Shown piece by piece: positions 19,007-61,253 of a stretch of 64,000 nucleotides of DNA. Each line of letters opens with the position of its first letter. Position 1 is the first letter of the stretch. Under the pieces are notes generated by a model. It saw only the letters and a program-made list of their open reading frames with translations. It was not told the DNA's origin and did no database searches. Source of the stretch: Owenia fusiformis (lineage: Eukaryota; Annelida; Polychaeta; Sabellida; Oweniidae); contig CAIIXF020000009.1 of the NCBI GenBank assembly GCA_903813345.2, forward strand, positions 15,465,759 through 15,529,758, in the 5' to 3' direction. The position numbers and the translations under genes are program-made.

Positions 19007-19657
19007 TCACATGTTATTTGTTTCCTTGTATCCTCCAATCACATTACAAATAGATGGCATCACCTGTCCTTGTACTGGACCATAATCAACCAGCTCCCCA
19101 TCAACACAGAGATACCCTTTCTTTGTTAGAGGCTCAAGTCTGAAAGCCTGGCACTTGATATATTCAATATGTGGATTCTCCAAGTATGTCCCATTATCCA
19201 CACTTATTTCTTTTAGAATATCTAACATGTGGAGTCTGTTGCCTGATGTTTTAATATAGAATATGTGTATGATGCCATCATCCAAAGACGCATGAGGAAT
19301 TCCATAAGTCATTTGGTTGAGGTGTGTTTGAAATAATGCACTGAATGAATATGTCTCAAATTCATAAGATTTCCAGCTGCTGGGGACTGGCTGGTCAATA
19401 GCAGGCAGGAGATCAAGGGGGATCATTCTGTGTGGTGTATCCCCAGCATCACACAAGACCACATCATCATTCAGGCTGATACCAGTGTCACTTGGGCTAC
19501 TGACAGCCTCTTTAGCACCAATGTCCTCCTCTTTAACAATGTGTTCGTTCTGATCATCAATAGCCTTGTTTTTATCATATGTGATTGTGTTTGATTCATC
19601 TTTATTAGATTGGTTTGGTCCTCTTTGGTCTCCCCCTCCTCCTTTGTTATCACTACC
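19007..19657 (-). CDS. Sphingosine kinase cassette B, last exon (block C5)
   Basis: The exon begins after the acceptor gctcccag in phase 0 and runs 216 codons to TGA. The first ~95 residues are a polar, acidic, low-complexity linker (Gly-rich GGGG, many Asp/Asn/Lys) of the sort that varies between sphingosine kinases. The rest matches the family closely: 'QPVPSSWKSYEFETYSFSAL', then DDGIIHIFYI, then the C5 block 'CQAFRLEPLTKKGYLCVDGE' and GPVQGQV. The VDGE motif holds the Glu that, in known structures, helps position the substrate. The family phosphorylates sphingosine to sphingosine-1-phosphate using ATP. Compared with cassette A the body is intact and the stop lies at nearly the same place, so this is not obviously a pseudogene. 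Confidence 0.9.
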   Translation of the reverse strand, partial: GSDNKGGGGDQRGPNQSNKDESNTITYDKNKAIDDQNEHIVKEEDIGAKEAVSSPSDTGISLNDDVVLCDAGDTPHRMIPLDLLPAIDQPVPSSWKSYEFETYSFSALFQTHLNQMTYGIPHASLDDGIIHIFYIKTSGNRLHMLDILKEISVDNGTYLENPHIEYIKCQAFRLEPLTKKGYLCVDGELVDYGPVQGQVMPSICNVIGGYKETNNM

Positions 19658-20517
19658 CTGGGAGCAAACAAAAGTAGATATTAAAAATATACACAAACTG
19701 TATGTTTTATCATTGAGCTTTCACATGGAAATGGGGTAGATGTCTTTCTAGAGATGCACTTAGAAAATGCAAAAAACATAATACTAGAGTAGCTCAGAGA
19801 GTTAACTTCAAGTCAGATGTTCAAACTTACATATAATGAAGTACAACAAAAATTCAAAACAATATTTAAGGAATATCAATATCACTGACATTAACATAAT
19901 CAATATCATTATATCCCAGTAGGCAAAATATAATTACGAAAAGTATTCTTAGAATTGAAATTGCATAAAAATAAGTAATGTATACTAAGGTGAGTAATGA
20001 CATTCATAAAAAAGTCAGACTTTCTTTTGCATCCCGCCATACTGTTAGTGAATAAAAACATGTGTGGCAGATATGGAGAAATGGGGGTAAACTTGAAATG
20101 AAGTAGCATTCAGATGGCCGTCTCATATCATGCAATATTCATGACACTTAAGCCTGATTATGAAGTCCAGATGTCATCTTGACGATCAATAATTTCTGAC
20201 TTAACAAACACCCATTGGCTTAGAAATATGCTTTCAAATAAAAGTCAATATGAAACAAACATCCAGTGGGCACAGAGAGTAACCATAATTAACACACCAG
20301 GGATCATACTTGATGGGTGTATTAGCAAGAAACCCTGTTACTCTGCACTCAAACTAGATTGTATTCAAAAATATACATTATACATTGTTTTATTGATTAC
20401 CATTATTCAGTGATAATTTTCAAATATTCAATTTAGGTCAATGCTACTCTAGTTTCTAGATATATAATCGTATTTTGGTGATATTAAAAAATGGTAAAAA
20501 GTTTTAAAGAAAATGTG
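19658..20517. other. 3' part of the last intron of cassette B
   Basis: Non-coding sequence between the exon and the large palindrome. No distinct element is seen. Confidence 0.4.
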
Positions 20518-24290: not shown

Positions 24291-24369
24291 TATATTGGAA
24301 GATGTCAGCACTGTCTCATTAGCACTTTATATTTCTTACAAAAGAAGATACTAGAATAGTAGATTTCTC

Positions 24370-28646: not shown

Positions 28647-28717
28647 CTTAGAAGTACTTGTGGATTCCACTTCTTCCAATGGTAAATATGACAGCCTTCC
28701 CCTATACTTCTTAAGAC
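28647..28717 (-). CDS. Sphingosine kinase cassette B, middle exon
   Basis: A 71-bp exon following the acceptor ctatcccatag. It completes a Gly split across the junction (G plus GT), then reads L-K-K-Y-R-G-R-L-S-Y-L-P-L-E-E-V-E-S-T-S-T-S-K. The Y-R-G-R-L-S-Y-L-P core is the end of block C4 of sphingosine kinases. The donor AAG|GTTGGT leaves phase 0, matching the phase-0 last exon, although GTTGGT is a weak donor and an alternative edge is possible. The equivalent exon of cassette A is longer (122 bp) with an extra polar tail. Confidence 0.8.
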
Positions 28718-29415: not shown

Positions 29416-29636
29416 CACCAATTTTGAGAAAAGCTCCTAGAAGGAACCTTATGTCCCCAATCTTTCTCCATGGTTCTGTATCTACATCGATGTCCGAGAA
29501 CATTCCCCAGGAGACAGAGAGGAAACAGTACATAGAGCTAGAAGGCAGTTCCAGAGCCACCAAGTCCATTGGTTGAATCTGGGGCTTAGCTACAATGAAC
29601 GATGAGTGACGTATCCATTCATCTTCAAACGGTTCC
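29416..29636 (-). CDS. Sphingosine kinase cassette B, first visible exon (block C4)
   Basis: The exon begins after 'atatgtttag' in phase 2 and ends at ATTGGTG|GTATGT in phase 1. It encodes about 74 residues: 'QPMDLVALELPSSSMYCFLS' then VSWGMFSDIDVDTEPWRKIGDIRF. This is block C4, which lines the lipid pocket and contacts ATP. The Asp-Ile-Asp pair, the Glu of Thr-Glu-Pro and the two Arg residues (W-R-K and D-I-R) are kept. Pro-Trp replaces the Lys-Tyr found in cassette A and in typical members, a change right next to the nucleotide-binding Arg. The upstream exon should end with two bases of a split codon. I could not find it before cassette A's stop, about 15 kb upstream. Confidence 0.88.
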
Positions 29637-29929
29637 CTAAACATATAAGATATTACCCATCAAGATCGCATATCAACAGATTACTAAGTCAATGATGAAG
29701 TGTGCATTAAAGAGGCAATGTCTGTTTTATATCATGCAAATCACTAAAAAATTTACTTATTGGTACTACACATAATGTTCTCACACTTGGTCTTTGCTAC
29801 AATCAATAGAGTCAAGTGAACAAAGGTGATTATAACAATTGGGGTATGAACTTGAAAAATCTGAAGAAGATTTCCGGCAACTTCTCATACATATAAATAA
29901 AGGACCCACAGTCCTGTGCTCACACAGTG
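29637..29929. other. Unassigned flank upstream of cassette B
   Basis: If cassette B had its own ATP-binding exon, it would be expected from here upstream. No GGDG- or GSGNA-like coding stretch is seen on the minus strand. Confidence 0.4.
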
Positions 29930-30700
29930 TTTTGTGCAACCAATGATGATTGACTTTATACATGAGAAAGTTCCCTGAAAATGATGAAGACTAAACACCA
30001 AAAACTGTAATTTCAAGAGCTTTGAAATCTTCAGAGAACATAAGTTGCATATACAGCAACTACTACAAGTTATTTGAAAGTTCTACTTCAACAAAGTGTC
30101 TAGTATTTACAGAAATTGTGACTTTTTAACGTCAAAATCAGCAATTTCTCGGAAACCGGGCGAACTTGGAAAATGGCGATGATAGGTCAAATAGGCATTA
30201 TGGATATACATAAAATGAATGTGGATATGACTCAATCCAAATAGCAGTGCAGCCAATGATGATTCACTTTATACATGAGAAAGTTCCCTGAAAATGACAA
30301 AGTCCTACTTTTTGTCAAATTGTATAGAGTAAACACCAAAAACTGTAATTTCAAGAGCTTTAAAATCCTCAGAGAACATACATGTAAGTTGCATATACAG
30401 CAACTATTACAAGTTATTTGAAAGTTCTACATGTACTTCAACAAAGTGTCTTAGTATTTACAGAAAATTTGACTTTTTGACGTCAAAATCAGCAATTTCT
30501 CGGAAACTGGGTGAACTTGGGAAATGGCGATGATAGGTCAAATAGGCATTATGGATATGCATAAAATGAATGTGGATATGACTCAATCCGAATAGCAGTT
30601 TTAATTTGTGCGGCCAATGTGGATGGACGGATGGACAGGCGGACGGACGGATGGACCAACAGACGGACGGACACCTGGTCGATCCCATAGCCAAAAACAC
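29930..30700. repeat. Direct duplication of about 310-340 bp followed by GGAC-rich tail
   Basis: 'caatgatgatt.actttatac' to 'gactcaatcc.aatagcagt' occurs at about 29,937-30,245 and again at about 30,250-30,600. The second copy has small insertions. It is followed by 'ggacggatggacaggcggac', the same kind of tail as the interspersed family. Confidence 0.8.
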
Positions 30701-31711
30701 ATTGTCACTTTAACATAGACTAAAACATGCAAACATGTAAGAATTTTTAATGATGCAACTAACAAGATAATCAAGTGAAAATGACACTCGAAAAACTGAT
30801 CCACTTCTTATGAAAATACCACAAAGAAATACAATGAACAAACTAAATGCTTGTTTTCTGTTGGTTAGGTAACATGTCAATGACATCACAAATTAATATA
30901 TGATCAATAGTGATGTGTGACGTTAAGCTTTGTTGTTGTTTAGTTGTTAGGGCAATATGTGACTGATGTCATAGTTTATATGATATTACGTCATATCTTT
31001 ATCACAATCACACCATATGACGTCGTGATCGTTGCTTTGATGATTTGCCATATAAGGTAATAATGGTGGACTTTTGGTCAAGTGACTGATTGAACTCCGG
31101 TCAATAGAACGAAGGCTCTGCCCACTTCAAGGGGGGCCTTCATAATACTGTGCAGTATTCTAAATGGCTTTAGAAATGTGAAAACCTTTAACTTTCAATT
31201 CTATGATCATTTTTTAAGAATCATTGTGATATTAAACTTGCACCCTCTATAGGGTTTAGTAGCAGCTTTTTGTCAGTAAATATTGCTAAAAGAGCAAACA
31301 AGAGTTGCAGATCCCAATGGCCAAAGTATATTTACTGTGATCTTTATGGGCTGTTTCCAATAACCTTTCAATATTTGATGATACTAACTCATCTTCTGAG
31401 TCACCATTTTGAGTTTTGGAACAAACATTTGAGGATATGCTTTTAAATACCTGTCATTTGAAGAAAATAAATCATTACTTTAGAGATATCTCATTTTGCA
31501 TTTATTTAGGAACAAATATGTAATCTACTCTCGACCACCTTTAGTTCCAATATAAAATAAAATAAGATTTGTTGGAGATTTGTCATTACTTTTAATTAAT
31601 ACCATTTTGGCTTTGGCTTTGGTAACACTGTCCCCAATTTACTTGCTTTGACCATTAAACCATCAAACAAGGATGACATTCCAGTTTTTAATTTTTTGGT
31701 TTTCTTGATTT
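30701..31711. other. Unassigned sequence
   Basis: No coding exon or clear repeat. The 'gatgtgtgacgttaagc' and 'gatattacgtcatatc' segments contain CRE-like tgacg/cgtca words, which may be chance. Confidence 0.35.
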
Positions 31712-32871
31712 ATAGCGGAATCAATTGGTGAATGATCTTGCGTTTTCATACTAAAGTTCGTTTTTGAGTTTTTTCTTATAGCTTAATGTATTTAAAGATA
31801 TTTAAGAGACAGGGCCCTTTTTCTAAAGCCCTATTTAGAAAAATAATTGAGATTACAAAGGATACCTGTTATTTCTGCTTTTAACACAATTTTAATAGAA
31901 AATTCAAATTCCAAACTCCTTATCTAACTATAATTCACCAATGGAGAATGGGAATTGAGGAACCAAACTTGGCACAAAGTTAGATCCTAGGATAAACTCT
32001 AATCTTAGGGCTTTGATTTTTTGTGATATCATATATTTGCCTAGCAACCACATAGCAACCACCTAAAATAACATATTTTACAATATAAATCCACTTAATA
32101 TATGCTAGGATGCTATGAGACCATTACAAAAAAGTATTCTTATCCTTAAATACAACAATTTTAACATATTTACAGAAGTGACATCACCATGTTACATAGC
32201 AACAACATGGCAACAGGTTACAATGCCCATTTTGATATTTGCAGACCATATAATATTATATATTCACTGCTTTTGGATCTCTTCCACATTATTTCTTAAC
32301 ATATAGCAAATGTATTGATGCAGTTATGTCTGACCATTTTCCCTAGCAACGGCTTGAAATAAAGGTTAGATTTGCCTAGCAACGACCTAGCAACATCTTA
32401 AAATGGCAATGTTTCTCATAAGTATTTCACTATATATCCACTATATATACTTCAATCAATATATATGTGTTTTGTAATTTATAAAGCTTTATAGTTGCTC
32501 ACTTAAAAATCTTTAGTCTCTTGTGTAAAGCATGATGGGACATTTCTTGTCTAATGTTTATCAAATTGCAAATCATGTTTCAGTTCTGAGATTAAGTAAA
32601 CACGAAATATTCATCACATTGATTGACATGGTTCGATGCAGTAGAATGCACCATGGCATTTGCAGTTCCCTTTACAGTCACATTTGGTCATCCACATTTA
32701 ATTATGACTTTACATGCTTTGGATGCTTAAGCAATTTTGTCCATCTGGGCACCCACAATCCTGATGGGATCCTAAACCATCCTCATAGGCTTGGTGAAGG
32801 AAGAACTGGATCCACTATATACCACTCCCCCCATACATGTGCTTCTTGTCAAAAGGGCACCTGTAAGATCA

Positions 32872-33391
32872 TTACATATGTTCCATTGCTTGAAAACTGT
32901 TGAGATTTGTCTCACTGTTTGTAGGCTGGTAAACCAGGATAATGAACCTCTCAATTGTGCCCGTAACTTCTGTTGTTACAGTTGATGGGCGATCTGCTAG
33001 AGTCAAAAGGACACCTGTTAGATCATTACATAAGTTCCTTCGCTTGAAAACTGTCACCTTGCTATGATGGTAAAATCCAGATGTGGTATCAGTTCCAGTA
33101 AGGGCGTGGAACATTGGCAGCATAGTGCTCAAGCGAATTCATAAATTGGAATGTAGTGTTAGTTTTGCCTTTTGAAAATGCTACATATCTCTCAATCTGT
33201 AGCTCAGAGGCACAGGCTATCACAACATTACTGTCCACCGATCTTACCATAAATGTCCTGCAACCTTTTCCGACACCATGAGACACATTCAAAAACATAT
33301 GTGTTGCCTCTCTCTGGGAGCAGGGACTATTATGGCATAGCAGGATTACTGATGCACTCTCCTTCAATGGTTGAGACAAAGATTTTATCAT
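32872..33391 (-). pseudogene. Decayed transposon ORF, left arm
   Basis: Two overlapping minus frames, linked by a frameshift, read 'THMFLNVSHGVGKGC', 'FMVRSVDSNVVIACASELQI' and, after the shift, 'MLPMFHALTGTDTTSGFYH'. The H-A-L-T-G-x-D-T-T-S motif preceded by a D-T/S-x-V block is known from uncharacterised proteins carried by invertebrate mobile elements; its function is not established. A 150-bp internal direct duplication ('caaaaggacacctgttagat' and 'caaaagggcacctgtaagat') further disrupts it. Confidence 0.65.
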
Positions 33392-33808
33392 CTGCCATAT
33401 GTCTTGTAACAGTTGCTAGTAGTGCAAAGAACTCTATCTTGTTGTCATCGTTTCTGAGAAATCCTATCCTAGCACCAAACTACCAAGCAATTGGCAAGAC
33501 GTTCTTGAAAGATAGAGCTCTTTGCACAATTCCTAAATCCTTCAGCATCTCAATTGGTAAAACTTGAAACTTTGAAATTAATGACTTGTATGTTTCAGCA
33601 AAGCCCAGATAGGATTTTAAGCTTTTAACAAGTATAACCTTGACCTAACAATTTAATCAGTAAAATATGGTGTCTTGATTTAAAATCTATATACTAGTAT
33701 TTTGAACATGCCCTGCTGGGATACATAAACTCCATATACTGGGTTCAGTGGAATATTACTATCCATTCAAATGTGGAAAATTAACAATGTCATGAGGCAG
33801 ACACATAT

Positions 33809-34057
33809 ATGTTTTTGCATGTGTCTCATGGTGTCGGAAAAGGTTGCAGGACATTTATGATAAGATCAGTGGACAGTAATGTTCTTGTGATAGCCTTAGT
33901 CTGTGCCTCTGAGCTACAGATTGAGGTCTATGTAGCATTTTCAAAATGGAAAACGAATCGCTACATTCCAGTTCATGAGATTGCTAGAGCACAAGGACCA
34001 CAAAGATCATGTATGCTGCCAAAAGAAATTGTAGCAATTAACCCAAATAAAGTATAA
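33809..34057 (+). pseudogene. Decayed transposon ORF, right arm
   Basis: The plus frame reads 'MFLHVSHGVGKGCRTFMIRS' and then 'RYIPVHEIARAQGP', colinear with the left-arm ORF but in the other orientation. It keeps the I-P-V-H-E-I-A segment that the left copy has lost, and lacks the downstream H-A-L-T-G part before a stop. Neither arm could encode a full protein. Confidence 0.65.
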
Positions 34058-35062
34058 CCTTAGGGGTATCAATGCTGAAAATGTAACAAGGATAAATACA
34101 ATGAATATTTTGTGTTTACTTTATCTCAGAACTGAAACATGAATTGCAGGACTTTTGCAATTTGATAAACATAAGACAAGAAATGTCCCATCATGCTTTA
34201 TACAAGAGACTACAGATTTTTTTAAGTGTACAGAAACAAAGCTTTATAAATTAAAAGACATGCATATTAATTTTCTTCAAGTAAATAATAGTGGATATAC
34301 TTTTATAGTGAGATTTTTATGAGAAACATTGCTATTTTAAGCTGTTGATAGATCATTGTTAGGCAAATTAAACCATTATTTCAAGCCGTTGCTAGGAAGT
34401 TGCCAGGGAAAATAGTCAGGCATAACTGCATCATTTATACTTAAATACGATTTCTGTATGTTAAGAAATAATGTGGAAGGGATCCAAAAGCATACAAGTG
34501 AGTATATAATAGGAATATGGTGTGCAAATGTCAAAATGGGCATTGTAACCTGTTGCCATGTTGTTGCTATGCAACATGGTGATGTCAATTCTGTAAATAT
34601 GTTTGAATTGTTGTATTTTAGGAAAAGAAGACTTATTGGTCTTATAGCATCCTAGCATATATTAAGTGGATTTATATTGTAAAATATGTTATTTTAGATG
34701 GTTGCTATGTGGTTGCTAGGCAAATATATGATTTCACAAAAGATCAAACCCCTCAGATTAGAGTTTATCTTAGGGTCAAACTTTGTGCCAAGTTTGGTTG
34801 CTCAACTTCAATTCTCCATCGGTGAATTAAAGTGAGATAAGGAGTTTGAAATTTGGATTTTCTGTTAACATTGTGTTAAAAAGCAGTAATAATGGGTATC
34901 TTCTGTAATCTCAATTATTTTTCTAAAAAGGGCTTTAGAAAAAGGGCCCTGTCTCTAAAATGTCTTGAAATACATAGAACAATAAGAAAAAACTCCAAAA
35001 CGAACTTTAGTATGAAAACGCAAGGTCCCTATGGGGGCCTTGCACCATTTGATTCCACTATT

Positions 35063-35497
35063 ACTCTAACTGAAAGGTTTAGGTTACAGACTATAATTTG
35101 ACTCAAAGTTTACTTGGTTTTCAAATAAGCAGCCATTCTAATATTTAGTCCCTTTGTTTTGCTATTGTCACAAGAACAATTTTGGGATTCTAACTTACGT
35201 TACTATGATGAAAATTTTGTCAACGAAACAGAAGGGGTGACAAAATGCAAATTCAGGCTTTATTTGTGAACCAAAATCAGTTGTATATGAGCCACAACCT
35301 AAATGATGACTTCAAACCAAATGTTCTCTCAAAAATACCTTCAACTTAAATTACTGAAGATATAATTCAAATAAATAAAACAAACAACTGATTATTATGA
35401 GACAGAATTAATCATTTTATTTACAAAACTTTAATAAGGTAATGACAAGTCATGGGATATGAAAAACTCTTTATTTTTGTATATTTTCTTTAAGGAA
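35063..35497. other. Remnant related to the 36-38 kb element
   Basis: 'gactcaaagtttacttgg' to 'atatttagtccctttgtttt' is a degenerate version of 36,170-36,290 ('ggctcaaagttaagg' to 'atatttagtccctcgctttt'). It is probably an older insertion of the same element family. Confidence 0.4.
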
Positions 35498-36000
35498 AAC
35501 TAGAAAACAGCAACTCCACAGAGTAGCAAATCCCACCGAACAAAACATATTTTGCTTATTATTGGCCATCTTGAAAATTCCTTCTTGAGCAGAGCTTGTT
35601 TGTCCCTAGGCATCAACATATAAAATATAAACCATATCCATCAATTAGCATTTGAGTTATCAAAGATTATATTCCTTTTTTACGAAAAATGGCAGCCATT
35701 TTGAAATTCAGCCACCATTTTGAAAATCTTTCTCGAACAGAGCTACTGTGTCCCTAGGCATCAGCATATAAAATTTCAAAATAAATCCATTCACTGCTAT
35801 TTGAATTAAAATTGAAGAAGCTACCCTGAAGAAGAGATTTTCGAAATGGCTGCTAAATATCAAAATGGCGGCCATTTTTCGTAAAAAAAACATAATCTTT
35901 GATAACTCAATATGGGTCAAATGCATGTGAAAGTGGATTCTCCCTAAATTCACCATGCTCTTTTCAAAACTTAAGGTTATCAAATAGGAGATTTCTAATG
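35498..36000 (+). repeat. Interspersed family copy, head and tandem body
   Basis: Starts 'aaaacagcaactccacagag', 'tagcaaatcccaccgaac', then body units with 'ccctaggcatcagcatataa', 'tttgagttatcaaagatt' and 'aaaatggcagccattttgaa'. The last part is rearranged, with 'aaaatggcggccatttttcg' running into an inverted unit. Confidence 0.7.
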
Positions 36001-36049
36001 CAATAAGGTTCTATGTCCTTCATTTGAAAAAGATAATTACTGCTACATG

Positions 36050-38310
36050 CACTGGTACCCACCTAGTTACGCTGATGATACGTCAGCGTAACAAGATGGA
36101 AGAACTTCCGGGCTTAGTTGTCGTTAAGATATTTTTATTTCTCGATTTTACACCAAATTGTGGGCAATTATTTGGCTCAAAGTTAAGGAAGATAGTCTAG
36201 TTTCAGAATATACATGCGATTTTATGTTTGGTTTATCAACGAAGAAGCAATTCACATATTTAGTCCCTCGCTTTTGTTACGTTGACAATCTGCATGAATA
36301 TTACCAATGTGACATTGACGAAGACACTTTGTTACGTTGACGAATGAAAAATGTTGATCTTTGGCTCATAGATTTTTGGCATGTGTCCGGGGCAAGTGAA
36401 GCTGAGATAATGAATCAAAATCTTGTAATAATTATTCTCATATTTATATAATATGTGCATTCCATTCCATTCCAATATTGATACAAAACTGACATCCTAT
36501 TCACAATTTAATTCATTAGAGGCTCAAATAACTGTGGATGATCTGATAGCGTTATTGGTAGAGCGTTGCCTTGGCCCCAGGACCTCCTTTTATGCATGGG
36601 TTCGAAACATGGGGAAGCATTTTAATTTTTCATAAGATCCAATCATCAACAGTTGTGGAAATGCGAAGATATTTTCTTTATGGTCCAATTTCTTCCCTCT
36701 CTCACGTAACAAAAGTTAGCAAGTGTCGATTTGTTTACAATAAATAAAAAGATTCACCCCCCCTTCCCCGCTTATGAAATTATCTTATTGACTAAAAAAT
36801 AATTCACGCATAGCTAGTCAAATCAGAACACTCACTCATACTAGATAACATATGCATTGAACCTAATGAATGTTGCCTTTTTCGAAGTGATAAATGGATA
36901 AAGTTCATATTTGAGTAAACTTCCAGTATCATTTAGGGAATATTAACAAGCTACGTGCTATAATAAAGGCTGAACCAAAGTAGAAATATATTAATTCAAC
37001 ATTCACACGCATTTCAAGTGCCAAATAAACATTGTTAATTGATTGAAGTTCACAAAAAAAACATTCTTGTGGAAAGAGCACTGCAATATCATTCATAACA
37101 TATACAATTAAGGAATTGATTAAAATGTTTCAACCACGCACGTCATTTTCACGTAACGTAAAATTTCTGCTCTGAACATGAAATCAGTTTTGCCGCGAAA
37201 ATAGACGTGTGCTGACTTTATATCACCAATATTATGATAAAATGAACTTTTGGAATTGTTGATGCTTCACTATCATAAAGTGAGCCCTTCATACGGTAAG
37301 ATGACAAAACTAAATCTAGTAAAATGGTTTGAGTACAACTTTAAGTTTGAATCAATTTGTATCCGATGTCCCTCATTTTGCCAAGCTTTAACCTTACTAC
37401 ATTTCACACCAAAATGATTGTAAATATAGGATCCTCATTTCTCGTCGAGTACCTGTCTCTGAACGCTCAGTGCCTCACCCTCGTGATTATAGGACTTCCA
37501 GGACTCTCTGAAATAGTTGAACTATGCAATGTCGTCAGAAGGGGAGGGATTTGAGGGGATCCCTGATTTTTTTAGATTCCAAACCTAGCCTAGAATTGAA
37601 AGCTCTAGATCTAATTAAAGTCAACAAAGTCTATGTCAGTATATGTAGGCTATCAAGCAGATTTCTCATATTATATTTAATTACCATGTATGTAGTTTCT
37701 AAAGAACCCATACAGTATGTAAATACTTTGAAGAATAAGTGCAAAATGTATATTTTAGTAAAAGTCTAAGTATTTTGGTCAAAGTCAAGTTAACTTGGGA
37801 ATATTGTGCTGAGATATGTTCAGAATGAACCAGAGGATATAATTTTGACAATTTTCTGGGAGCACGCCCTCCGACCCCACTAGATTGCGCTTCGCGTGCG
37901 GTGCGCTTTACGCATGACCCATCCATACCCAAAAGTCGCCTCCTCCCTTGACAAATCCTTCTGATGCCCCTGCTATGTATTCATGATTGTTGCCCAATAC
38001 GCCAATGTTAATATGGTTCGTCAACGTAACAAGAGCGTTCGTCAATGTAACATTGATCTTACGTCAACGTAACAAAAGTGGGGGACTAAATATTTGAATT
38101 TTGTCTTCGTTAATGTATCAAACATAGAACCCTCTGCATATTTTCAAACTAGACCATCTTCTTTAACTTTGAGCCAAATTATTGTCCACAACTTGACTTA
38201 TAAATGGTGTAAAATCGAGAAATAAAAATATCTTACCGAAAAGGAAGCCTGGAAGTTCTTCCATCTTGTTACGCTGACATATTGTCAGCGTAACTAGGTG
38301 AGTACCAGTG
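36050..38310. mobile_element. Foldback element with hairpin termini and GTTACGYTGAC repeats
   Basis: Inverted arms of about 300 bp (36,050-36,350 and 38,010-38,310) share 'cactggta', 'cacctagttacgctga' and 'acaagatggaagaacttcc'. Each terminus holds a perfect hairpin, gttacgctga-loop-tcagcgtaac, and the word gttacgttgac is repeated inward ('ttgttacgttgacaat', 'cgtcaacgtaacaaaagt'). No transposase frame was recognised in the middle. A TIR-like pair around 37,525-37,550 and 37,940-37,965 ('cagaaggggagggattt' and 'aaatccttctgatgcccc') suggests a smaller MITE nested inside. Confidence 0.75.
36535..36615 (+). other. tRNA-like promoter sequence (tRNA relic or SINE head)
   Basis: 'tagcgttattggtagagcgt' resembles a tRNA D-arm with an A box, and 'gggttcgaaac' about 45 bases on resembles a B box. 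The T-stem and anticodon stem do not pair properly and the distance is long, so this is not a functional tRNA. It could be a tRNA-derived SINE fragment. It lies inside the foldback element. Confidence 0.3.
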
Positions 38311-38323
38311 ACATGATTCAAAT

Positions 38324-39101
38324 TGGAGATAAAACCTTTTTACATTTAATGACAAAGTATATACAGTGTGACACAGACAAAATGACACCCACCCACATAA
38401 TGTTAAATGTTGCATAACTTTTTGGATGAATCTGGATGAATGACCTTTTGCATAGTAAAACCTTACTCCATCATGTCCATGGAGCAGCCCCACAGGAAGT
38501 TTCAGATTACTAGCTAAATTAGATGCACCTTTATGAGCATTACGAGATGTGTCATCTATTCCTTTGCAGGAGTGCCTGTATTTTACACAAAAATGCCATC
38601 CTCCTTTTAAAGCAGAAAATGTTATCATGTCTCATCATGTTTGCTCTGAATATATAAAAGTTTACCCTTCGCAATAGTGTGGCTTGCTTCTTTGAAGGTG
38701 CAACAATTAGTGCAACGATCATGGACCAGTGTTGAAATACATTTTGTTTGGATATTTCATCAAGCCTCACATCATATTTTCATTATCTCCAAAGAAACCC
38801 CCTGGATGAACATTATTTCACCTGATATTCCCCTTCAAACATGGTGGATCATAAAAATCTATATAAGTGGGACTCCCTTTATAGAAGCTTCGGACTGAAT
38901 TTACACTTCTTAATGCTGGAATTGATAATTTATCCATATGTTTTAAGAAAATAGGTATGTCAAAGAAAATGTTGCCCTGATAGCTCAGAAAAACAAAAAA
39001 CATTTGAATTTTCCCTCTACAGTCCTTGTTGCCCCTTTAAAATAGCTTTATCTAGTTGACAAGCCCTTTAGTCCAGGGTAAGAAAAGGTTTTATCTCCAT
39101 C
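38324..39101. repeat. Segment bounded by 16-bp inverted repeats
   Basis: 'ggagataaaacctttt' on the left and 'aaaaggttttatctcc' on the right are perfect reverse complements about 760 bp apart. The interior has overlapping minus frames without family features. Part of it ('caacgatcatggaccagtgt' onward) resembles 56,520-56,640, so it is repetitive. Possibly a MITE. Confidence 0.5.
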
Positions 39102-40440
39102 AGTTAAACTCATTGTTCTATCTATCTCCAAAAGCATTTTTTTAAAAAGTAGCCTTAAACATTGGCATTTCTTGCCATCCTGATCAGGAATGATTCATCT
39201 TGGCTATATGATGCATAAGCATTCATGTCAATATTCTATTTTGCTGTATCACAAAGATAGAGGAACCTAAATGTTTGTTCTCACCGTTTTCTCAAATATG
39301 GTACATGAGGACATAGAACCTTTTAATAGTAGAGGGACAAAATCTACTTTGTCCTTAGGCATCATCATATAGAATTTGAACCAAATCCATTCACTGGTAT
39401 TTGAGTTATCAAAGATTACACTTTTTTACGAAAAATGGCCATTATAAAATTCAGCAGCCATCTTGAAAATCTCTTCTTCAGCATACATGTACCTCGGAAT
39501 AACCCACGATTGCTTTCTCAAGAGAGGCGCAGCTTTAAGTGGTGCATTTCAAATGTGAGTTTTTAAAATTCAATGGACTCACCATGTGAGCTAACTAGAC
39601 AACAGCAACACCATAGCGTAGCAAATCCCATCGAATAGCCAGGCATGGCTGGTTATTTTACAAAATCCTTCTACTACTTTTTCAGTTATAGACAAAATTG
39701 TAAAATAAGACACATAAAAATGGCCACCATTTTCAAATTGTCATAAGAAAGTGTTATACGGTTCTACAAATGTAAGTAGGCACATATATAATTTCAAAAA
39801 AGTCACAAACACATACATGTAAATGGCAGCCATTTTGAAAAATGACCACCTTCTAGCCAAAGTGTCAAATATGTACATACATACATACGGATGGACGGAG
39901 GTGCTCCCTATATCCCACCAAACCTCATTCGATGGGATAGTAAAAATATATTTAATGGTTACATAAACCAAAATTTCGAACAGTAATACTGACAATTTCA
40001 GCCATTTTGCAAAAAAGAAAATCATAAGTTATTTTCTGGATGGATGGGTGATGGACAAACAGAGAGCTTCACTTTATCCCTATCAAACTTTATTCTTTGG
40101 GATCATGAATTCATATAACAGTACACTGTAACTAATTGATTCACATAGCATAACACTATAAACAATAAATTCACATGAAAGTTCATTTTAAACAATGGAT
40201 ACAAATGAGAGTTTATTGTAATGATGAACTTACATCACAAACAAGATGTACAAGGCAGTATACTACAAACAAAACAATGACAGTACTGTATACTGCAAAC
40301 AAGGAATTCACATGAAGGTGCACTGCAAACAAGAAATTCAAAAGGCAACAACTAAACAAACAGCAACTCCCCAGAATAGCAAATCCCATCGAATGAAACA
40401 TATTTTATCATATCACTCTTCATTTTGAACATTACATGAT
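39102..40440 (+). repeat. Fragmented copies of the interspersed family
   Basis: Tandem-type body pieces ('ttaggcatcatcatatagaa', 'tttgagttatcaaagattac'), a head at 39,598 ('caacagcaacaccatagcgt'), tails near 39,890 and 40,040 ('ggacggaggtgctccctata', 'gttcgatggga'-like) and a second head at 40,365 ('gcaactccccagaatagcaa'). Between 40,100 and 40,340 a short-period theme 'tcacatgaaagttca' and 'ctgcaaacaaggaattc' recurs. All pieces are in plus orientation. Confidence 0.6.
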
Positions 40441-40447
40441 AGAATAA

Positions 40448-41030
40448 GGTAAAGATTAAAAGGTGGATTGGATCGAGTGGATTGGATTCATGTAAAAGAT
40501 GGATTGGATCGGGAATCTTCAAAATATGGAATTTCTTTAATATTTTGTGATCACTCAGGTCCCTTTGCGGAATCAGAACAACAAGTACACATCTAATTAG
40601 TTGATGGATATAACAGTATTCAACTGCTTTCCTTTGTAAATCGACTTTTTTAAGGCATAATAAACATAGATCTGTGTTGATAAAATCTGTCATTCAAATT
40701 GATGTGTTTATGTTCCCATCTACAAGATGTTCTGTTTATATTGAAAAAAGCAGTCTGCTTTATGATTTATGAATTGCCTAAAATTACCCTGAAATGAATA
40801 AGATTATTTATCAAAAAGTAGGTACCAGGTCACACTTCTAGACCACCTGAGCAAAATAATATTACATCTGTTATTTGACACTGTGGATGTGAGGAGAACA
40901 TCAATTAATCTGACAGAGGGAGGTTAATAGAAAAAAAGTCTTCAAGTCACTATTTTGAAGATTCCCGATCCAGTTCATCTTTTACATAAAATCCAATCCA
41001 CTCGATCCAATCCACCTTTTAATCTTTACC
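40448..41030. mobile_element. Foldback MITE with 8-bp target duplication
   Basis: Terminal arms of about 80 bp are inverted: left 'ggtaaagattaaaaggtgga', right ending 'accttttaatctttacc'. Within each arm 'ggattggatcg' is repeated. The flanking 8-mer tagaataa stands on both sides (40,440-40,447 and 41,031-41,038), a clean target duplication that favours an hAT-like 8-bp integration. It has no coding capacity and splits a copy of the interspersed family. Confidence 0.8.
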
Positions 41031-41038
41031 TAGAATAA

Positions 41039-42276
41039 CCCTTCAGTAGTATAGTACAGTATAGTCTCCTTTGGCAAAATTTATATCCATGATGTGACAT
41101 GGTATCATATATACTACTCTATAGAGGTCCTATGGCCCAAAGATGGAAGTGTACTATGAACACTCAACAGTACATCATAATAATATACACATGGGAGTAC
41201 ACTGCAATCAAGGGCAAACAAAATGTAAATGCATCGGTTTATGATGGAAAATTGTATTTTAAAGAATGCAATAAGCAATAACTCTTTAGTATGCAACAAG
41301 CCTATACCCTGTGTGGCCTCACATACGTCATAATGCACACACAACACATGTTACATTTTGTGGTCACAAACTTCAAATACATTGTCAGATAAGCTTCCAC
41401 CCATATAATAGTAACAGAGTGTTTTTTTTATAAAATTAAATATGCAGAGATGTATTTATTAATATATGGCACTATATTATTTATTATAGACTACCACTCC
41501 TAGAATTCCATTTGTGCGGAGTGTGGACGGAATGGTCTTCAGGCATGGAATCACAGAATCTAAAATTTTGATCACTATTTGAAATTTGTGCAAAACTGAA
41601 TTCGTTGTATTAACTTATCTCTAGATTGCTGCAATAAAAATACATGCAAAGGATCTTAATAATTATCTGTCTTAATTTTCATTAGAAACGCCAAGAAGTC
41701 CCGCAGAATTGGCATTTTTACCTTATATAATTCAGCATTTCAATTTGCAGAAATCTAGGAGATTAGATGGTCTATTCTAGATTTTCTCAAAATAAGCCTT
41801 TGGCCTTCCATGAAAGTGGGAAAATTATATTCTTGAATATACAAAGGCCTCTTTGAAAATACATTACTTTCAACAAAATGCCAAACATCTATTTGAAAAC
41901 TGAATTTGAAAGTTTTTTACATTGATTTGATGCAAATCATATTACTTAATTATGTGCCCTTTATATAACATGGAATGAATGTTGTCATGCAAAGGGTAGA
42001 TAAAATGAATGAAATTGTCAAATGAAAAGTTTGAGAGGCATTCAAATTCAAATATATCAAAGTGGTCTTTTCTAAAGCCCATATAACTTATTACAAGAAC
42101 ATCCTGTTATAGTCAGTTACTTGTATTACAACAACATCTAATTCAACATTGAATATTTTTATTACAACAAATGTTGTTAAATAATCTTTTCGAATCACCA
42201 CTAGAATCAATCCATGATTAATATTTTGGCACCATAAAGCAAACCATAACTAACTCTGCACGCTGCATTTCAATTA
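41039..42276. other. Unassigned sequence
   Basis: No gene or strong repeat was recognised; short open frames only. Confidence 0.35.
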
Positions 42277-42278
42277 TA

Positions 42279-43194
42279 CAGGGTGGTCCAAAAAATCATT
42301 CACACTTTTGATTACGTATTCTAATAATTGGCAGATTTCCGAATCTTTTTTCATAGACCTGTCCGAAAGACATGTAAGTTTTACGTTGTGTAGGTTTTAT
42401 CATCATATATCACCATAATGTGAGCACAGATCAATAGTTTGTTATGTGCTCAATCCAAGTTCCTTGCACACATTGTAATGTCCCTGTTCGTGTTGTCATA
42501 CGGAATTCTCCTGATCTCTCTTTTAATATTCTTTATCTCATCAATGGTTTGGGAATTGTTTGCATAGAACTTTAAAGTATACCTACCAAAAAGCGTTATA
42601 GGGGATATGTCTTGAGAATGTGCAGGTAGGGTGTGATCCAAACAATAGGAGATGAGTCTGTCTTCAGGGAAGTAATGATGGAGGTATTCAAGTGAAGCAT
42701 CGGAGCATTGAAATATTGCTTCATCATTCCGATGGATAAGAGTATCCATGTCAACCCCTCACTTTCATGCCAATGCCAGGAGGAACTTCAATGTATCAGT
42801 CCATGTAGGAAATGAACATCCAGTAGCATCCTTAAACCAGTACGGCCCAGTTATGACCTAACTTTCACCAGTCAACTAGTCTCAACATCACATATTTGAT
42901 GCGAATGCTCAGAAGCCTAAACCTTAGCCAAAATGTGCATTCTTAATTGTTGAAGGTCATTACAAGCTTAAATGTGTGATTAGCAATTCAGCACCAAAGA
43001 GCTTGGATTGGGCACATCACAGACCTCTGACCTTGTGCTCGCATTAAGGTGGTACTAGTATATAAAAAAAAAACTTACACCACACAAAATTTACATATCT
43101 GTAGGACAGGTTTATGAAAAAAAATTTGGAAATCATCCCGTTGTTAGGAAATGATATGTTATCAAAAGTGTGAATGATTTTTTGGACCACCCTG
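42279..43194. mobile_element. Mariner-type element, decayed, with about 140-bp inverted ends
   Basis: The ends 'cagggtggtccaaaaaatca' and its inverse are flanked by TA on both sides, the normal mariner/Tc1 target. The inverted similarity extends about 140 bp, with several indels. Transposase remnants on the minus strand lie inside. The element is about 0.9 kb, shorter than an active copy, and cannot encode a full transposase. Confidence 0.85.
42450..42749 (-). pseudogene. Mariner-type transposase C-terminus, decayed
   Basis: The 99-codon frame reads 'YFPEDRLISYCLDHTLPAHS', 'QDISPITLFG', 'YANNSQTIDEIK' and 'REIRRIP'. This is the DDE-domain end of mariner-type transposases, where typical members have S-P-D-L-x-P-x-D-F-F-L-W-G. 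Here the D-F-F-L-W-G part is degraded (I-T-L-F-G-R). The catalytic N-terminal portion is missing, so the protein cannot work. Confidence 0.8.
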
Positions 43195-43196
43195 TA

Positions 43197-44512
43197 CAAT
43201 CAAGAATACCAACAGATCACACAAAACGTTAAGCAATACCAACTTGTGTATCATATTATTTTACATACACTGAATTAATTTAAACACATTATGTTTCTCT
43301 TGCAGTTTTATCAATACTGGTGTACTAAGAGGTATTTATGCACTTCCTTTTAATAATAAATATGTTGGTTTCATGTTATATTATTATAGCTTTTGAAAAC
43401 TAGAAAATCAGCAACTCCACAGAGTAGCAAATCCCACCGAACAAAACATATTTTGATTATAAGAGGACATCTTGAAAATTCCTTCTTGAGCAGAGCCTGT
43501 TTGTTCCTAGGCATCAACATATAAACTGTAAACCATATCCGTAAATTAGCATTTGAGTTATCAAAGATTACATTCCTTTTTTACGAAAAATGGCAGCAAT
43601 TTTGAAATTCAGCCACAATTTTGAAAATCTTTATCGAACAGAGCTTCTGTGTCCCTAGGCATCAGCATTTAAAATTTGAACAAAATCCATTTACTGCTAT
43701 TTGAGTTACCAAAAATTACATTTTTTTCTACGAAAAATGACAGCAATTTTAAAATTCAGCTACCATCTTGAAAATTATTTGTCAAACAGAGGTCCTGTGT
43801 CTCTAGGCATCATCATAAAAAATTTGATCCGAATCCGTTCACTGGTATTTGAGTTATCAAAGTTCACGTTTTTTATGAAAAAGTGGCCACCATTTTGATA
43901 TTTAGCAGCCATTCTAAAAATCCATTTTTCAGTGCAGCTCCTTTGTCCCTAGGCATCAGCATATAAAATTTGAACCAAATCTGCCGACTAGTATTTGAGT
44001 TATCAAGGATTACATTTTTCTTATGAAAAATGGAGGCCATTTTGAAATTCAGCCGCCATCTTAAAAATTCTTTCTTGAACAAACCTTCTTACTCCCTAGG
44101 CATCATTATACAAAATTTGAACCAAATCCGTTCACTGGTATTTGAGTTCTTTACAAATTTCAATTCATATTGGAGTAGGGCTGTATCCAACAATCCTTGA
44201 GAGATCAGTTACTTTAAAAATAAGAAAAACGTGTTTTTGTCAGGATTGATGCGCGAGAAATGTGGTAATTTTTTTTCCCAGGTTATGAAAAAATAAGACT
44301 AACTCGGGGGGGGGGGGGGGGGGGGGGGGGTTAAAAAGAATGCGCGCGGAAATGCTAAACTATTGCATTTCTTACCTACGCCCAAGGCATAAGCCTATAA
44401 AATTTGAATCAAATCCGTAAATCGATATTTGAGTTATCCCCTGGACAAACAGACGGACAGACGAATGAATGGCTTTCCTATACCCCCCTCGAACTTCGTT
44501 CGTTGGAATAAA
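43197..44512 (+). repeat. Interspersed family copy with about 165-180-bp tandem body units
   Basis: Head at 43,405 ('aaaatcagcaactccacaga'), then about six body units containing 'ccctaggcatcagcatataa', 'aatccgttcactggtatttg' and 'cagccgccatc', and a tail at 44,445-44,512 ('acagacggacagacgaatga', 'cgaacttcgttcgttggaat'). A run of 25 G (44,306-44,330) interrupts the last part. Copies of gccatttttc/gccatcttga give YY1-like words. Confidence 0.8.
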
Positions 44513-44628
44513 CATGTATTGATAAGATCAAAGAAATTATCACACCAGAAAACAGGTGTTCAAGGACAGATGTTAAATGCATTTGGTCCTGGTGAGCTTG
44601 TGCATAGGCAAGTTTTCTCCACCATTCT

Positions 44629-45354
44629 CTATTCATTCTCTGGGATTGGGGATCTACCGATTAGAGTAGCATATCTTGCCAATACCTGTCCCTGTATGGG
44701 ACCATAGTCCACCTTTTCTCCATCTGCACACAGATATCCATCTGTAATAGGCACAAGGCGGAATGCTTTACATTTGATAGAAGTAAAATGCCTATTCTCT
44801 AAATGCTTTCCTTCAGCCATCTCTGCTATACTTTGAAGTAAAACTTTACGTGTTGCTGACTTTTTGACAAACATAATTTGGATGACACCATCATCAAATT
44901 GACTGTCAGGTGCAGCAAATGCACTTGCATTAAAGTGTGTCTGATATGCTGCAGCAAATGAGTAGGTGGCAACATCTATAGTAATCCAGTCATCAGGCAC
45001 ATCTTCATCTAAAGGATTCAACAAAGGTGTTTCTATACAATCGTAACTTGACATCTTCTTATTCATTCCAGTGCCATTTTCCCTGTGGCTGCCATTGATA
45101 AGAGTTTCCCCTGAAACCTCTGCACTATCACCTTTGCCAATCTCTTCATTGTTATTATCTACATCTAAGGATTCACTAATTTCACCATTCTCCATTGGAT
45201 ATTCAAACACATCATTAACAGGTGCAGAGATGTTCTCCAAACCATCCACAGGGCCCCTCTCTACATCACTGTCCTGTCTTGTTGGTGCATGCGCCCTTGA
45301 TGAATCATAGAATCCAACAGTTGGACAGCTAACTGTGCGGAGACGTTGATCATC
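44629..45354 (-). CDS. Sphingosine kinase cassette A, last exon (block C5)
   Basis: The exon starts after 'acttttttag' in phase 0 and runs 241 codons to TGA. The first ~110 residues form a polar acidic linker (for example 'GEISESLDVDNNNEEIGKGD'), followed by the conserved 'EDVPDDWITIDVATYSFAAA', 'DSQFDDGVIQIMFVKK', 'KHLENRHFTSIKCKAFRLVP' and the C5 block GYLCADGEKVDYGPIQGQV. The ADGE motif keeps the family's acidic residue. The product would be the C-terminal half of a cytosolic or membrane-recruited kinase that makes sphingosine-1-phosphate. The linker sequence differs greatly from that of cassette B while the core is similar, as expected of an old duplication under constraint. Confidence 0.92.
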   Translation of the reverse strand, partial: DDQRLRTVSCPTVGFYDSSRAHAPTRQDSDVERGPVDGLENISAPVNDVFEYPMENGEISESLDVDNNNEEIGKGDSAEVSGETLINGSHRENGTGMNKKMSSYDCIETPLLNPLDEDVPDDWITIDVATYSFAAAYQTHFNASAFAAPDSQFDDGVIQIMFVKKSATRKVLLQSIAEMAEGKHLENRHFTSIKCKAFRLVPITDGYLCADGEKVDYGPIQGQVLARYATLIGRSPIPENE

Positions 45355-50687: not shown

Positions 50688-50809
50688 CTCTTTGAAATTA
50701 GCTGTTCCTACATCACTGGTTGTTCTGTCTCTAGGTTTATGTGGTCTAGTCTCCCCGTTGTATTCTCCAATAGGAAGGAAAGATAATGTTCCACGGTACA
50801 ATTTTCTAG
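50688..50809 (-). CDS. Sphingosine kinase cassette A, middle exon
   Basis: A 122-bp exon. After 'tttctag' the two bases CT complete a codon started with G in the previous exon (Ala). It then reads R-K-L-Y-R-G-T-L-S-F-L-P-I-G-E-Y and a polar tail ending D-V-G-T-A-N-F-K-E. The donor GAG|GTAAGC is strong and leaves phase 0, agreeing with the last exon. A second AG four bases downstream of the acceptor would break the frame, so the first is used. Y-R-G-T-L-S-F-L-P is the end of block C4. Confidence 0.88.
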
Positions 50810-51290: not shown

Positions 51291-51295
51291 AAAAA

Positions 51296-57051: not shown

Positions 57052-59858
57052 CCCTTATAAAAAATTCAACCTTGAAAGTCCGAATTTAAACCGTTGCACA
57101 ATCATTGTACAATCATTGATCCGATCATTTATGCAACCATGTCAACCGTTACAATGCAACCATTACAATTTTGGTTGTAAACTCATTGAAAATTTTCAAT
57201 CATATGTAACCATTGTAAACGCTTGACAATTTTGATTGAATTTCTTGCAACCGTTTCAATCGATTGCAACCCTTTAAACCTATGGCAATATTATCTCAAT
57301 ACAACATAAAATAATTATATTGCTCTTTAAAATATATATTTCAAATGTATGTATTTCATGCATACATGTCAGAATTTAAATTTTTTTGATCAAAAAGATA
57401 TTTAAAGTATTGAAATAGTTTAGTAAACTTGTCTTGTGAATGAAAATATATTGAACCAATTTCCATCTAACCTTGAAGGATGGTGATTGTCCCACTCACA
57501 TGTATATTATCTAGATAACAGCAATGCTAAGGCATAGCAAATCCCCTCGCTGTCATGACAATCATTTTTACAAAATCCCTTCACTGCTTTTTAAGTTATT
57601 GCAAAAACATTTGAAATAATTTTGATTGGGTCAAGTCTTGAATTTTACAAATTCAGACACTTATACTTCACCTTCACCTGAGTAATTATCACAATTATAA
57701 AGGAGGGAAGATCTGTCTGCAAGGAAGAAATCCTTCAATCAGAAAATAATCTGTTTATTGATTTGATATTTTTGATTTGATAGAGAAAATGCAATCAGAC
57801 ATTACAGGATATGTTTAAATAATTAAGTCAATAAGCATAACTTAAAAAATTCTGATTACAGAAAGTCTCAGTCTCTTTAGTTTGATAAGAGTCTGCTTTG
57901 AAGGATGTGTCTAAAGAAACTTTATTAATCCATTAATCCATAAACAAAACAAAAATAATTCGGCAAGGCAAAACAAACCTTATAACAGAGAGACTCTCAG
58001 TTTGATTAGAGTCTGCTATAAAGGAAGCATCCTATGTAATTTAATTATTCCATACACAAAACATGATAAATAATTTGCCAAAGAAAATTTCCTATATTTT
58101 CTTCCATATTTGCCAAGTTGAGAGTTTTGAAAAATAAGCCCTGTTTTTTTTTTATTTTTTAATCATTGACACATATTATTTAAACTGAAAACAAGTTTCA
58201 GTACAAATGCTATGCCCTAGTGAATACAGTAAAGCCATGAACTTTCAATTTATTGAATGCCCATGGTAAAAAGAACTAAATAAAAATGAAATAAAAAATT
58301 CTAAAATTAGTATTTGCAGTTTCATATATTTGCTATTTGAGATTTCTCAGCACTTATTAAAGTAATTGAATAAAGAAATAAACCCTCAAAAATCTGAAAA
58401 CACTTTTTAAATTTTTACCCCCCCCCTCTGCATGAAATAGAGAATAAAAAATATATAATATATAGTATAACACAATATGAAAATAAATATAACAGAAACT
58501 AGGAATATGAACCCTATTTCTGGTCAAGCATTTTAATTAGCTGTTCAACCGTTTTAATTAGCTGTTCAACCGTTTTAATTAGCTGTTCAACCGTTTTAAT
58601 TGGCTGTTCAAGCATTCTGATTTGCCTAAACCCATGAGAATATCAATATGTAGTAGGAATTGTTGTGTTGAGCATTGTTATTAAAAATATTTGCCAAGAA
58701 AGAACATGGTAATTAAATCTGTTGTGAATAATGTGAATCAAAATCGTTCTCTTGTTTGTATTTTTTAAATTTTAGTGAGCCATACATTTGATATTAGGTG
58801 TTAACTACACATGTATGGATACATTTGAAGACCCATTTTGCCGGGGGGGGGGGGGGGCTGGCTACTGGCCTGTTCATTGTATATAAACTTTTGTGGGGGT
58901 CCTAAGCTAAACCCTCTGATACGTTCCCATACCGATCTATCATACTGCATCAATATGATCCCATACCAATCTATTTGTATATCATGGGTGTAGCAATAAT
59001 TCATCTACCTTGTCTAAATTTTACTGAAATTATTAATTCAGATGTTTTCCAGTTGAAATTATATGTTTGTATTATTTTGTATATCATATCCTGCTTCTTT
59101 TGATCATCAGTCTGATCATGAACAAAAACCATTGTGTCTCATCTTGTGATTTTGTTAAGTTTAAAGGAAATCTTAAGATGTTCCTTGGTCAATTCCTTAA
59201 TCAAATTAGAATTTTGCTCAATTCTTTTCATAATTAACATAATTTTGGCAATATCTGATAAAGGGAAATAAACACTAAATATGGTACTTTTAATTTGTGT
59301 AAATAATGTAAATGACAGAGAACATAAATTATCATATGCCATTGAGTGGAAAACTAGTCTGGTATCGCATTCCTAGATTCATACTGGAGAAAGAAACATA
59401 TTAACATGAATTAAGTTATTTACTATAATAAACATGCATGTATGCTTGCAGAAAGAATATCCTAATATACTATTGTTTAACAGAGGTCAGTTCGAATCCT
59501 TACTTAAAGATAATTTTAATACAGGTAAAATGATAATTTTTTGGAACGATACTAATTCAGGATGGTTGCAGGGGTTGAACTATGTAATCATTGAACAAAA
59601 CAAATTGCAACCATTTACATTTCAATGTGAAATGGTTGCAGTTTACAATGGTTGCAGATTACAATGATTGTATTGAAACGGTTGCGCAGTCGTTGAAAAA
59701 GAGTTGACTTCGCTTGGTTGAACACAATGGTTGCACAATGATTGCTTATCATCGTACAATGGTTTTTCCTTTGATCTTGGTAGTTGAAACAATCATTATT
59801 CAATGATTGGTGGAAACGGTTTAAATTCGGACTTTCAAGGTTGAATTTTTTATAAGGG
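57052..59858. mobile_element. TIR element with subterminal 'caaccatt' clusters, 2.8 kb
   Basis: Terminal inverted repeats of about 45 bp start 'cccttataaaaaattcaacc' and continue 'ttgaaagtccgaatttaaac'. The 250 bases inside each end are crowded with gcaaccattt, caatcattg and ttgcaaccgt words. Such subterminal motifs are typical binding sites for transposases. The interior has a family-head fragment (57,510), the 21-bp array and no transposase frame. No clear target duplication was found. Confidence 0.75.
58531..58614. repeat. Four 21-bp tandem units
   Basis: Head-to-tail copies of 'ttttaattagctgttcaacc' plus g; the fourth has two changes. Inside the 2.8-kb TIR element. Confidence 0.9.
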
Positions 59859-59869
59859 TGGCTACTGAT

Positions 59870-60090
59870 ATGCTTCATCATCAGTCTCACTCCACCTGCT
59901 TTCGGGGATTAAACTGAAGCAGGTATGGCGAGGAGTTACCCCAAGCAGAGTTGATCAGGCTCCACCAGCATTTGAAATGTTCTAACATGTATATAAATGT
60001 TATTTTAATGTTTGTTACTGTATTAGTTAAGTTTGTCTTTTGTACTCTTATACCCTATAAGGGGTGAATTGAGAAATAAATAAATAAATA
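59870..60090 (+). mobile_element. LINE 3' tail
   Basis: 'cttcatcatcagtctcactc', then 'accctataaggggtgaattg', then a short taaa repeat ('gaaataaataaataaata'). This is the look of a non-LTR retrotransposon 3' end; only the end is present. Confidence 0.5.
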
Positions 60091-61029
60091 TATGATAAAA
60101 TGTAGCCGTGCAAGATGGTAGGTTAATGGGGCGAAAACCACATTGTATGGGTTTCAACAGATGTTATCCGGATGGTATAATTAGCAACACTGTATCCATA
60201 TACCCCTCTACTATCACTTAAGTTTACAGCATGGAACGTTCAGGCACTGTGGGGTTCAATCCGGGCGTAAATTTTCCTCCGTCTAACATGGATCCTAAAA
60301 GTATCCATTAAGTGCTGCAATCTAGTAGAAATCTTTCATGCAGATACCACAGGCGTACCACGCACCTCAGAAATAAATTTCCTTCGCGTGCATGTTAAAA
60401 TAGTTTTATATGTTGTAATTAAAATCTTCACTAAAATGATGGCCAATTTGAAAACCATGAGAGCCATAGGGAAAGGGTAAAATTAGGTTAAAAAAATTCA
60501 CAAGATTATTAACCCCTAAAGGAACATCACTTTCACCATTGGAGCATAACTTTTCTAAAAAGTGTTATTTTGGATCACCTTAATATATAGTTCATTGATT
60601 CTAAGTAAAATTGATTATGGTGATATCATAATTGTACATACAATGCAGCATGCATGGATAGGTAGATGATGGAAGCGATATGGTAAACTGAATTCAATGG
60701 TAGCGATATGGTGAACTGAATTCAACACTGTTTTTGTTTTAAACCAATTTTTTTGAAAACATTCTGTAAAAAACACTATCCTTTATGTAATGGTCACTGA
60801 TTGACAACACTTTAGTTTGGAAATCATTTACAGATATATTTTTAATTATTGTTTTTGTATTTTTTCCTTTGGACAAATACAATATTGAGAGACCTGAAAA
60901 ACGTTGTGTATACTGTACTTCTACTTCAAATTTGGTGCAACTTATTAAATATTGAATTTGCCGGACTTGAACAATTAAAAAATGACCACCAAATTATAAA
61001 TAAGTACTATATAACAATAACTGACTCAC
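60091..61029. other. Intron of cassette A
   Basis: Contains the inverted copy (60,470-60,590) of the 50.9-kb element end and a doubled 'ggtagcgatatggtgaactg' near 60,675-60,720. Otherwise nothing was recognised. Confidence 0.45.
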
Positions 61030-61253
61030 CAGCTATCTTCACCATTCCTTCAAAGAAGAATCTGGCATCTCCCATGTAGCGGTATTTCTCTGATTCTATA
61101 TCAATATCAGAAATCATACCCCATGCTACTGACAGAAATGAGTAGAGACGTTTCCCAGAGACTGTATCCAGGGCAACTAGGTCCATTGGCATTAGCTGAT
61201 GCTTTGCTATGATCAATGATGCATGTAGCACTGCTCTTTCAAGATATGGCTCA
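61030..61253 (-). CDS. Sphingosine kinase cassette A, first visible exon (block C4)
   Basis: The exon starts after 'tttcctttgcag' in phase 2 and ends at AGCTG|GTGAGT in phase 1. It encodes about 75 residues: E-P-Y-L-E-R-A-V-L-H-A-S, then 'LMPMDLVALDTVSGKRLYSF', then SVAWGMISDIDIESEKYRYMGDARF. All family residues of block C4 are typical: the Asp-Ile-Asp, the Glu-Lys-Tyr-Arg and the later Arg. The ATP-binding half must be encoded by exons further upstream, beyond the window; none is seen in the remaining 2.7 kb. Confidence 0.92.

Follow-up and report, generated by a model that had tools for sequence, protein, structure and literature searches.

One predicted sphingosine kinase gene with three alternative 3′ cassettes in the annelid Owenia fusiformis

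In a 64,000-nt stretch of the Owenia fusiformis genome (hereafter the window; positions 15,465,759-15,529,758 of contig CAIIXF020000009.1, abbreviated as C9), two sets of three exons encode the lipid-binding half of a sphingosine kinase (SPHK). Do they form alternative 3′ ends of a single gene, or is one of them a partial duplicate? Taken as a whole, the locus is very probably a single SPHK gene on the minus strand, longer than 109 kb, whose three alternative 3′ cassettes exclude one another. Gene and protein extents are counted from the first catalytic exon (K1) onward. The assembly comprises 498 Mb in 525 contigs, with C9 being 38.9 Mb long, and positions beyond the window are given as window-extended coordinates (C9 position minus 15,465,758). 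Along the direction of transcription, the order is K1 to K3, cassette C, cassette A and cassette B, all on the minus strand (Table 1).

Table 1. Positions of the exons, cassettes and intervals of the SPHK locus, listed in the direction of transcription
Feature	Position	Strand	Description
K1	window-extended 128,010 (or 128,028) to 127,879	-	ATP-binding/catalytic half
K2	window-extended 103,741-103,647	-	carries SGDG (SGDGLIFE)
K3	window-extended 103,371-103,256	-	carries GSGNA (PGGSGNAL); phase-2 donor
C exon 1 (C1)	window-extended 71,825-71,605	-	phase 2 in, 1 out; 221 nt
C second exon	window-extended 69,298-68,538	-	TAA stop
Intron into cassette A, window portion	61254..64000	-	long intron
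A exon 1 (A1)	61030..61253	-	SPHK C4 block; phase 2 in, 1 out; 224 nt; acceptor TTTGCAG, donor GTGAGT
A exon 2	50688..50809	-	phase 1 in, 0 out; 122 nt; YRGTLSFLP
A exon 3	44629..45354	-	linker and C5 block, TAG stop; 726 nt
A-to-B interval	29637..44628		no SPHK catalytic exon detected
B exon 1 (B1)	29416..29636	-	SPHK C4 block; phase 2 in, 1 out; 221 nt
B exon 2	28647..28717	-	phase 1 in, 0 out; 71 nt; KKYRGRLSYLP
B exon 3	19007..19657	-	linker and C5 block, TGA stop; 651 nt

The original prediction described two three-exon cassettes, A and B, with the same layout and phases (2 in, 1, 0, stop), and its coordinates proved exact (61,253 and 44,629 for A; 29,636 and 19,007 for B). The first exon of A matched human SPHK1 (PDB 3vzb) at 2.3e-15 and that of B at 8.2e-10. 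Genome searches with the A protein and the B protein returned seven matches each, and all seven fell in both cases at this locus, in A, in B or in a third cassette (C) whose matches lie within C9:15,534,311-15,537,585. Cassette C extends from 71,825 to 68,538 in window-extended coordinates, just upstream of the window. Every internal border of the gene is GT-AG, and the donor of B exon 2 (GTTGGT) is weak by eye. All three cassettes are entered in phase 2 and end in a stop codon of their own: TAA in C, TAG in A and TGA in B. A phase-0 intron common to A and B is absent from C, so that exons 2 and 3 of A and B correspond to one exon of C. As cassette C and the sole detected catalytic set lie outside the window, the finding is larger than first stated, with three cassettes rather than two.

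The catalytic half is encoded by K1, K2 and K3, which lie about 31 kb upstream of cassette C on the same strand and carry VNPFSGPGKA, SGDG and GSGNA within 114 codons. Searching the genome with DAGK_cat (E up to 10) yielded 21 places, three of which are K1, K2 and K3. When the O. fusiformis exons themselves were compared with the genome, eight matches were obtained: three at the locus (1.3e-21, 2.3e-19 and 5.2e-15) and five ranging from 0.022 to 1.1, all of which coincide with places on the DAGK_cat list; the genome search scores top candidates only, and absence elsewhere in the assembly is thus unproved. No SPHK catalytic exon other than K1 to K3 was detected in the 498-Mb assembly, and the shared 5′ exons are single-copy within the limits of the assembly, which may lack contigs and in which some stretches read N, and of the searches. 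One could suppose instead that separate SPHK genes exist and that an assembly of 525 contigs has lost or misplaced their catalytic exons. But the window and the 70 kb upstream of it contain no N, the contig spans 38.9 Mb, and the whole assembly yields one detected catalytic set, which makes an artefact of this kind extremely improbable.

We obtained the same picture in the 154 kb around the locus. With the letters of human SPHK1 cut by exon, K1 (4e-10), K2 (9e-6) and K3 (7e-14) each had one match, and no second match to any of them was found in the 154 kb (the next best scored 0.74 or worse); the C4 and C5 blocks, by contrast, had three matches each, none weaker than 1.6e-12. Profile searches, which covered 8,651 six-frame ORFs of at least 12 residues with two-sequence models for the catalytic exons and four-sequence models for the cassettes, recovered K1 at 7.8e-31, K2 at 2.6e-23 and K3 at 7.2e-30, with no further catalytic exon in the 154 kb (next matches 0.15 or worse). 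The C4 block and the C5 block were each recovered three times, every match reaching at least 1.6e-40 and the next being 0.62 or worse; since the models include the sequences that they recover, the gap to the next match is the informative quantity in both cases.

The absence of an ATP-binding exon between the stop of A and B1, which the original prediction had reported, was borne out. Within 29,637-44,628, no SGDG or GSGNA exon was found by the O. fusiformis catalytic exons, by the human SPHK1 letters or by the two-sequence six-frame profiles, and a missed catalytic exon between the cassettes was rejected on these grounds. Unrelated genes between A and B were rejected as well. A Pfam scan of 10 of the 12 ORFs of at least 85 aa lying wholly inside the interval gave nothing over cut-off, with sub-threshold matches to RadC (0.05) and IP_trans (0.054) only; the 10 are all of the 12 ORFs except those at 33,253-33,564 (+) and 39,744-40,028 (-). 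The RadC match belongs to a frame at 33,092-33,415 (-), GVGKGCRTFMVRSVDSNVV, which resembles an inverted frame at 33,785-34,054 (+), GVGKGCRTFMIRSVDSNVL, that has no Pfam match; the two are probably repeat copies. Elsewhere in the window, a short tandem repeat at 16,276-16,640 contains one open frame on the plus strand and three on the minus strand, and a cysteine-rich frame at 6,510-6,821 (-) resembles a peritrophin-type chitin-binding domain by eye.

Could A and B be the remnants of whole-gene tandem duplicates, dead or dying copies whose own catalytic exons have diverged too far or been lost? The cassettes do stand in tandem on one strand, and the intervals between them are long and contain frames that look repeat-like by eye. 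The 154 kb holds no extra catalytic trace, though, even with human SPHK1 letters that recover K1 to K3 at 9e-6 or better, and the cassettes themselves are well preserved. Over 210 aligned codons, protein identity is 49% between A and B, 45% between A and C and 39% between B and C. The fractions of differing nucleotides at codon positions 1, 2 and 3 are.38,.29 and.65 for A-B,.44,.29 and.63 for A-C, and.48,.34 and.71 for B-C. In neutral simulations run to equal distance (uniform substitutions, no indels), 1, 0 and 0 runs out of 2000, respectively, kept an open frame. Third positions are near saturation while positions 1 and 2 are held, and no cassette looks like a relic. Judged by this codon-position pattern, all three cassettes appear to have been under long-term purifying selection, and we rejected pseudogene cassettes because of the intact frames and the codon-position bias. 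Frames, GT-AG borders and conserved residues that are all intact at 39-49% identity, together with this bias, likewise argue against tandem-duplicate remnants, which we regard as very doubtful. Of the two readings that the original prediction left side by side, the data thus support alternative 3′ ends of one gene over a partial duplicate: the sole detected catalytic exons lie upstream on the same strand and end in a donor phase that fits all three cassettes, and A and B are intact with the pattern expected of long purifying selection.

Joining K1-K3 to C, A and B gave stop-free frames of 441, 471 and 428 codons, respectively (stop included, counted from K1). The joined proteins matched human SPHK1 at 1.2e-82 (C), 1.3e-73 (A) and 2e-74 (B). 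DAGK_cat (PF00781) was over cut-off in all three, at 4.1e-25 (A), 2.2e-24 (B) and 2e-24 (C), as was PF19279. The features of sphingosine kinases (DAGK_cat/YegS_C fold) are present, namely the SGDG and GSGNA-type ATP motifs and the C4 and C5 blocks, and the conserved blocks and motifs follow one another in the same order as in human SPHK1 (PDB 3vzb). In 185 columns aligned to human SPHK1, 55 residues are identical across A, B and C, and 37 of these 55 are also shared with the human protein. They include Asp178, Asp341 and Glu343 (DGE motif) as well as Glu182, Arg191 and Phe192, in human numbering, which we take to be that of the 3vzb chain with an offset of 4, as fits the residue letters. The three products are predicted sphingosine kinases that would share one catalytic half and diverge in the lipid pocket, the linker and the C-terminus. 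In humans there are two separate SPHK genes, and the isoforms vary at the N-terminus, whereas at the locus described here the C-terminal half would vary inside one gene.

How would the halves be joined? The phase-2 donor of K3 is compatible with C1, A1 and B1, and the junction codon is glycine all three times. The original prediction that both of its cassettes take the same phase, so that switching would stay in frame, agrees with this donor and with the stop-free joined frames. On the simplest reading, the locus would be one transcription unit that ends in alternative 3′ terminal cassettes, each of which encodes a full lipid-binding half and supplies its own stop. The K3 donor would be spliced to the first exon of C, A or B to give three kinases with a common catalytic half. 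K3-to-C1, K3-to-A1 and K3-to-B1 junctions would then be expected in RNA, and competition of splice sites and 3′ ends may decide which cassette is chosen. The K3 introns required are 31 kb for C, 42 kb for A and 73.6 kb for B, and a K3-to-B1 splice would skip two terminal cassettes. The long distances from K3 to A and B (42 and 74 kb) are also what would favour cassettes with promoters of their own, either trans-spliced to K1-K3 or yielding C-terminal-only proteins, and trans-splicing of 3′ sets is known in insects, from lola and mod(mdg4). But all three first exons start directly after an AG in the phase of K3, which indicates an upstream exon, and a C-terminal-only protein would lack the ATP site; we consider such arrangements unlikely. 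Two observations concern the K3-to-C1 intron itself: two long frames at window-extended 83,212-85,791 (C9:15,548,970-15,551,549, +), on the strand opposite to SPHK, resemble the reverse transcriptase of a non-LTR retrotransposon by eye, and a tandem repeat with two open frames, its units about 20 residues long as judged by eye, occupies window-extended 92,833-93,666 (+).

With splicing from K3 into alternative cassettes, reading frame would limit the combinations. The first exons of C, A and B are 221, 224 and 221 nt long and run from phase 2 to phase 1, so that an mRNA containing two of them would lose its frame; the cassettes would thus be mutually exclusive at the protein level. Phases alone also permit in-frame hybrids, in 8 cis-order combinations. 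In the 3 kb after each stop, we counted 5 poly(A)-signal hexamers for C, 3 for A and 12 for B, against 6.7, 6.9 and 7.5 in shuffled sequences. Being below the shuffles after C and A and above them after B, the hexamers give no support for separate 3′ ends. Intronic runs shared near the acceptors and the K3 donor measured 8-10 nt, not longer than in shuffles (maxima 10-13); complementary runs were also seen, with a raw length of 8-10 nt. Like the hexamers, these runs lend the proposed mechanism no support.

We then compared the cassettes at the residues that contact lipid. A published study identifies Asp178 as the substrate-binding site and names lipid-pocket residues that contact a docked ligand (PMC6904568). 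Among 12 of these pocket positions, the three cassettes agree at three (173, 178 and 192), and the differing positions include 196 (G/A/T in A/B/C), 272 (A/T/I) and 303 (I/L/F). Excess divergence in the lipid pocket was not found: 3 of the 12 positions are identical against 3.6 expected, and 2450 of 5000 random sets were as low or lower. Since pocket divergence is not above average, a substrate switch is possible but unsupported beyond the general divergence. At human SPHK1 positions 197-198, encoded in A1, B1 and C1, cassette B has Phe-Leu as in the human protein, A has Met-Val and C has Leu-Ser. These positions are a calmodulin/CIB1 contact in human SPHK1, and the isoforms might differ in membrane recruitment as a result of the differences there. 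A plug-in lipid kinase, in which the three alternative lipid-binding halves would differ in lipid preference or cell location and in-frame hybrids could form, is a tentative suggestion that we hold as possible but doubtful.

The relationships among the cassettes vary along their length. Over the C5 block, A and B are the closest pair (54/112), and over the C4 block, A and C are (40/73). Identity to human SPHK1 over C5 is 44/113 for C, 39/113 for B and 34/112 for A; over C4, C and A are level (33/73 and 32/74) and B has 20/73. The closeness of C to the human protein over C5, level with A over C4, weakly hints that cassette C may be nearest to the ancestral 3′ end.

Arrangements of this general type are known from other genes. 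In the ADF/cofilin gene unc-60 of Caenorhabditis elegans, the first exon is shared and can be spliced to either of two downstream exon series, a choice made by repression of the first intron in muscle (PMC3469465). The likeness to that account lies in a shared 5′ part with alternative downstream exon series. There, the first exon alone is shared; at the present locus, at least three catalytic exons (114 codons) would be shared among three series of a lipid kinase. In Anopheles PGRPLC, alternative splicing attaches any one of three homologous domains to an invariant part, the introns of the variable exons occupy the same relative positions, and a hybrid transcript has been found (PMC2715215). 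That gene, in the same account, swaps a receptor ectodomain, whereas half an enzyme would be swapped here, and it has an additional exon common to all of its PGRP domains. The SPHK locus shares with this type 5′ exons that are single-copy as far as the searches reach, and three phase-compatible homologous series with stops. In the literature covered, judged by titles and abstract openings and largely outside subscription journals, tandem 3′ cassettes in an SPHK gene were not described.

If this reading is correct, splicing would do inside one gene the job that separate SPHK genes do elsewhere, and a signalling enzyme whose product is sphingosine-1-phosphate could exist in three versions from one gene. 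The locus would constitute a natural domain-swap experiment, with the catalytic exons held constant and three old, constrained lipid-binding halves, and would allow a direct test of the residues that set lipid preference or location. It would also represent a route to enzyme paralogues other than gene duplication.
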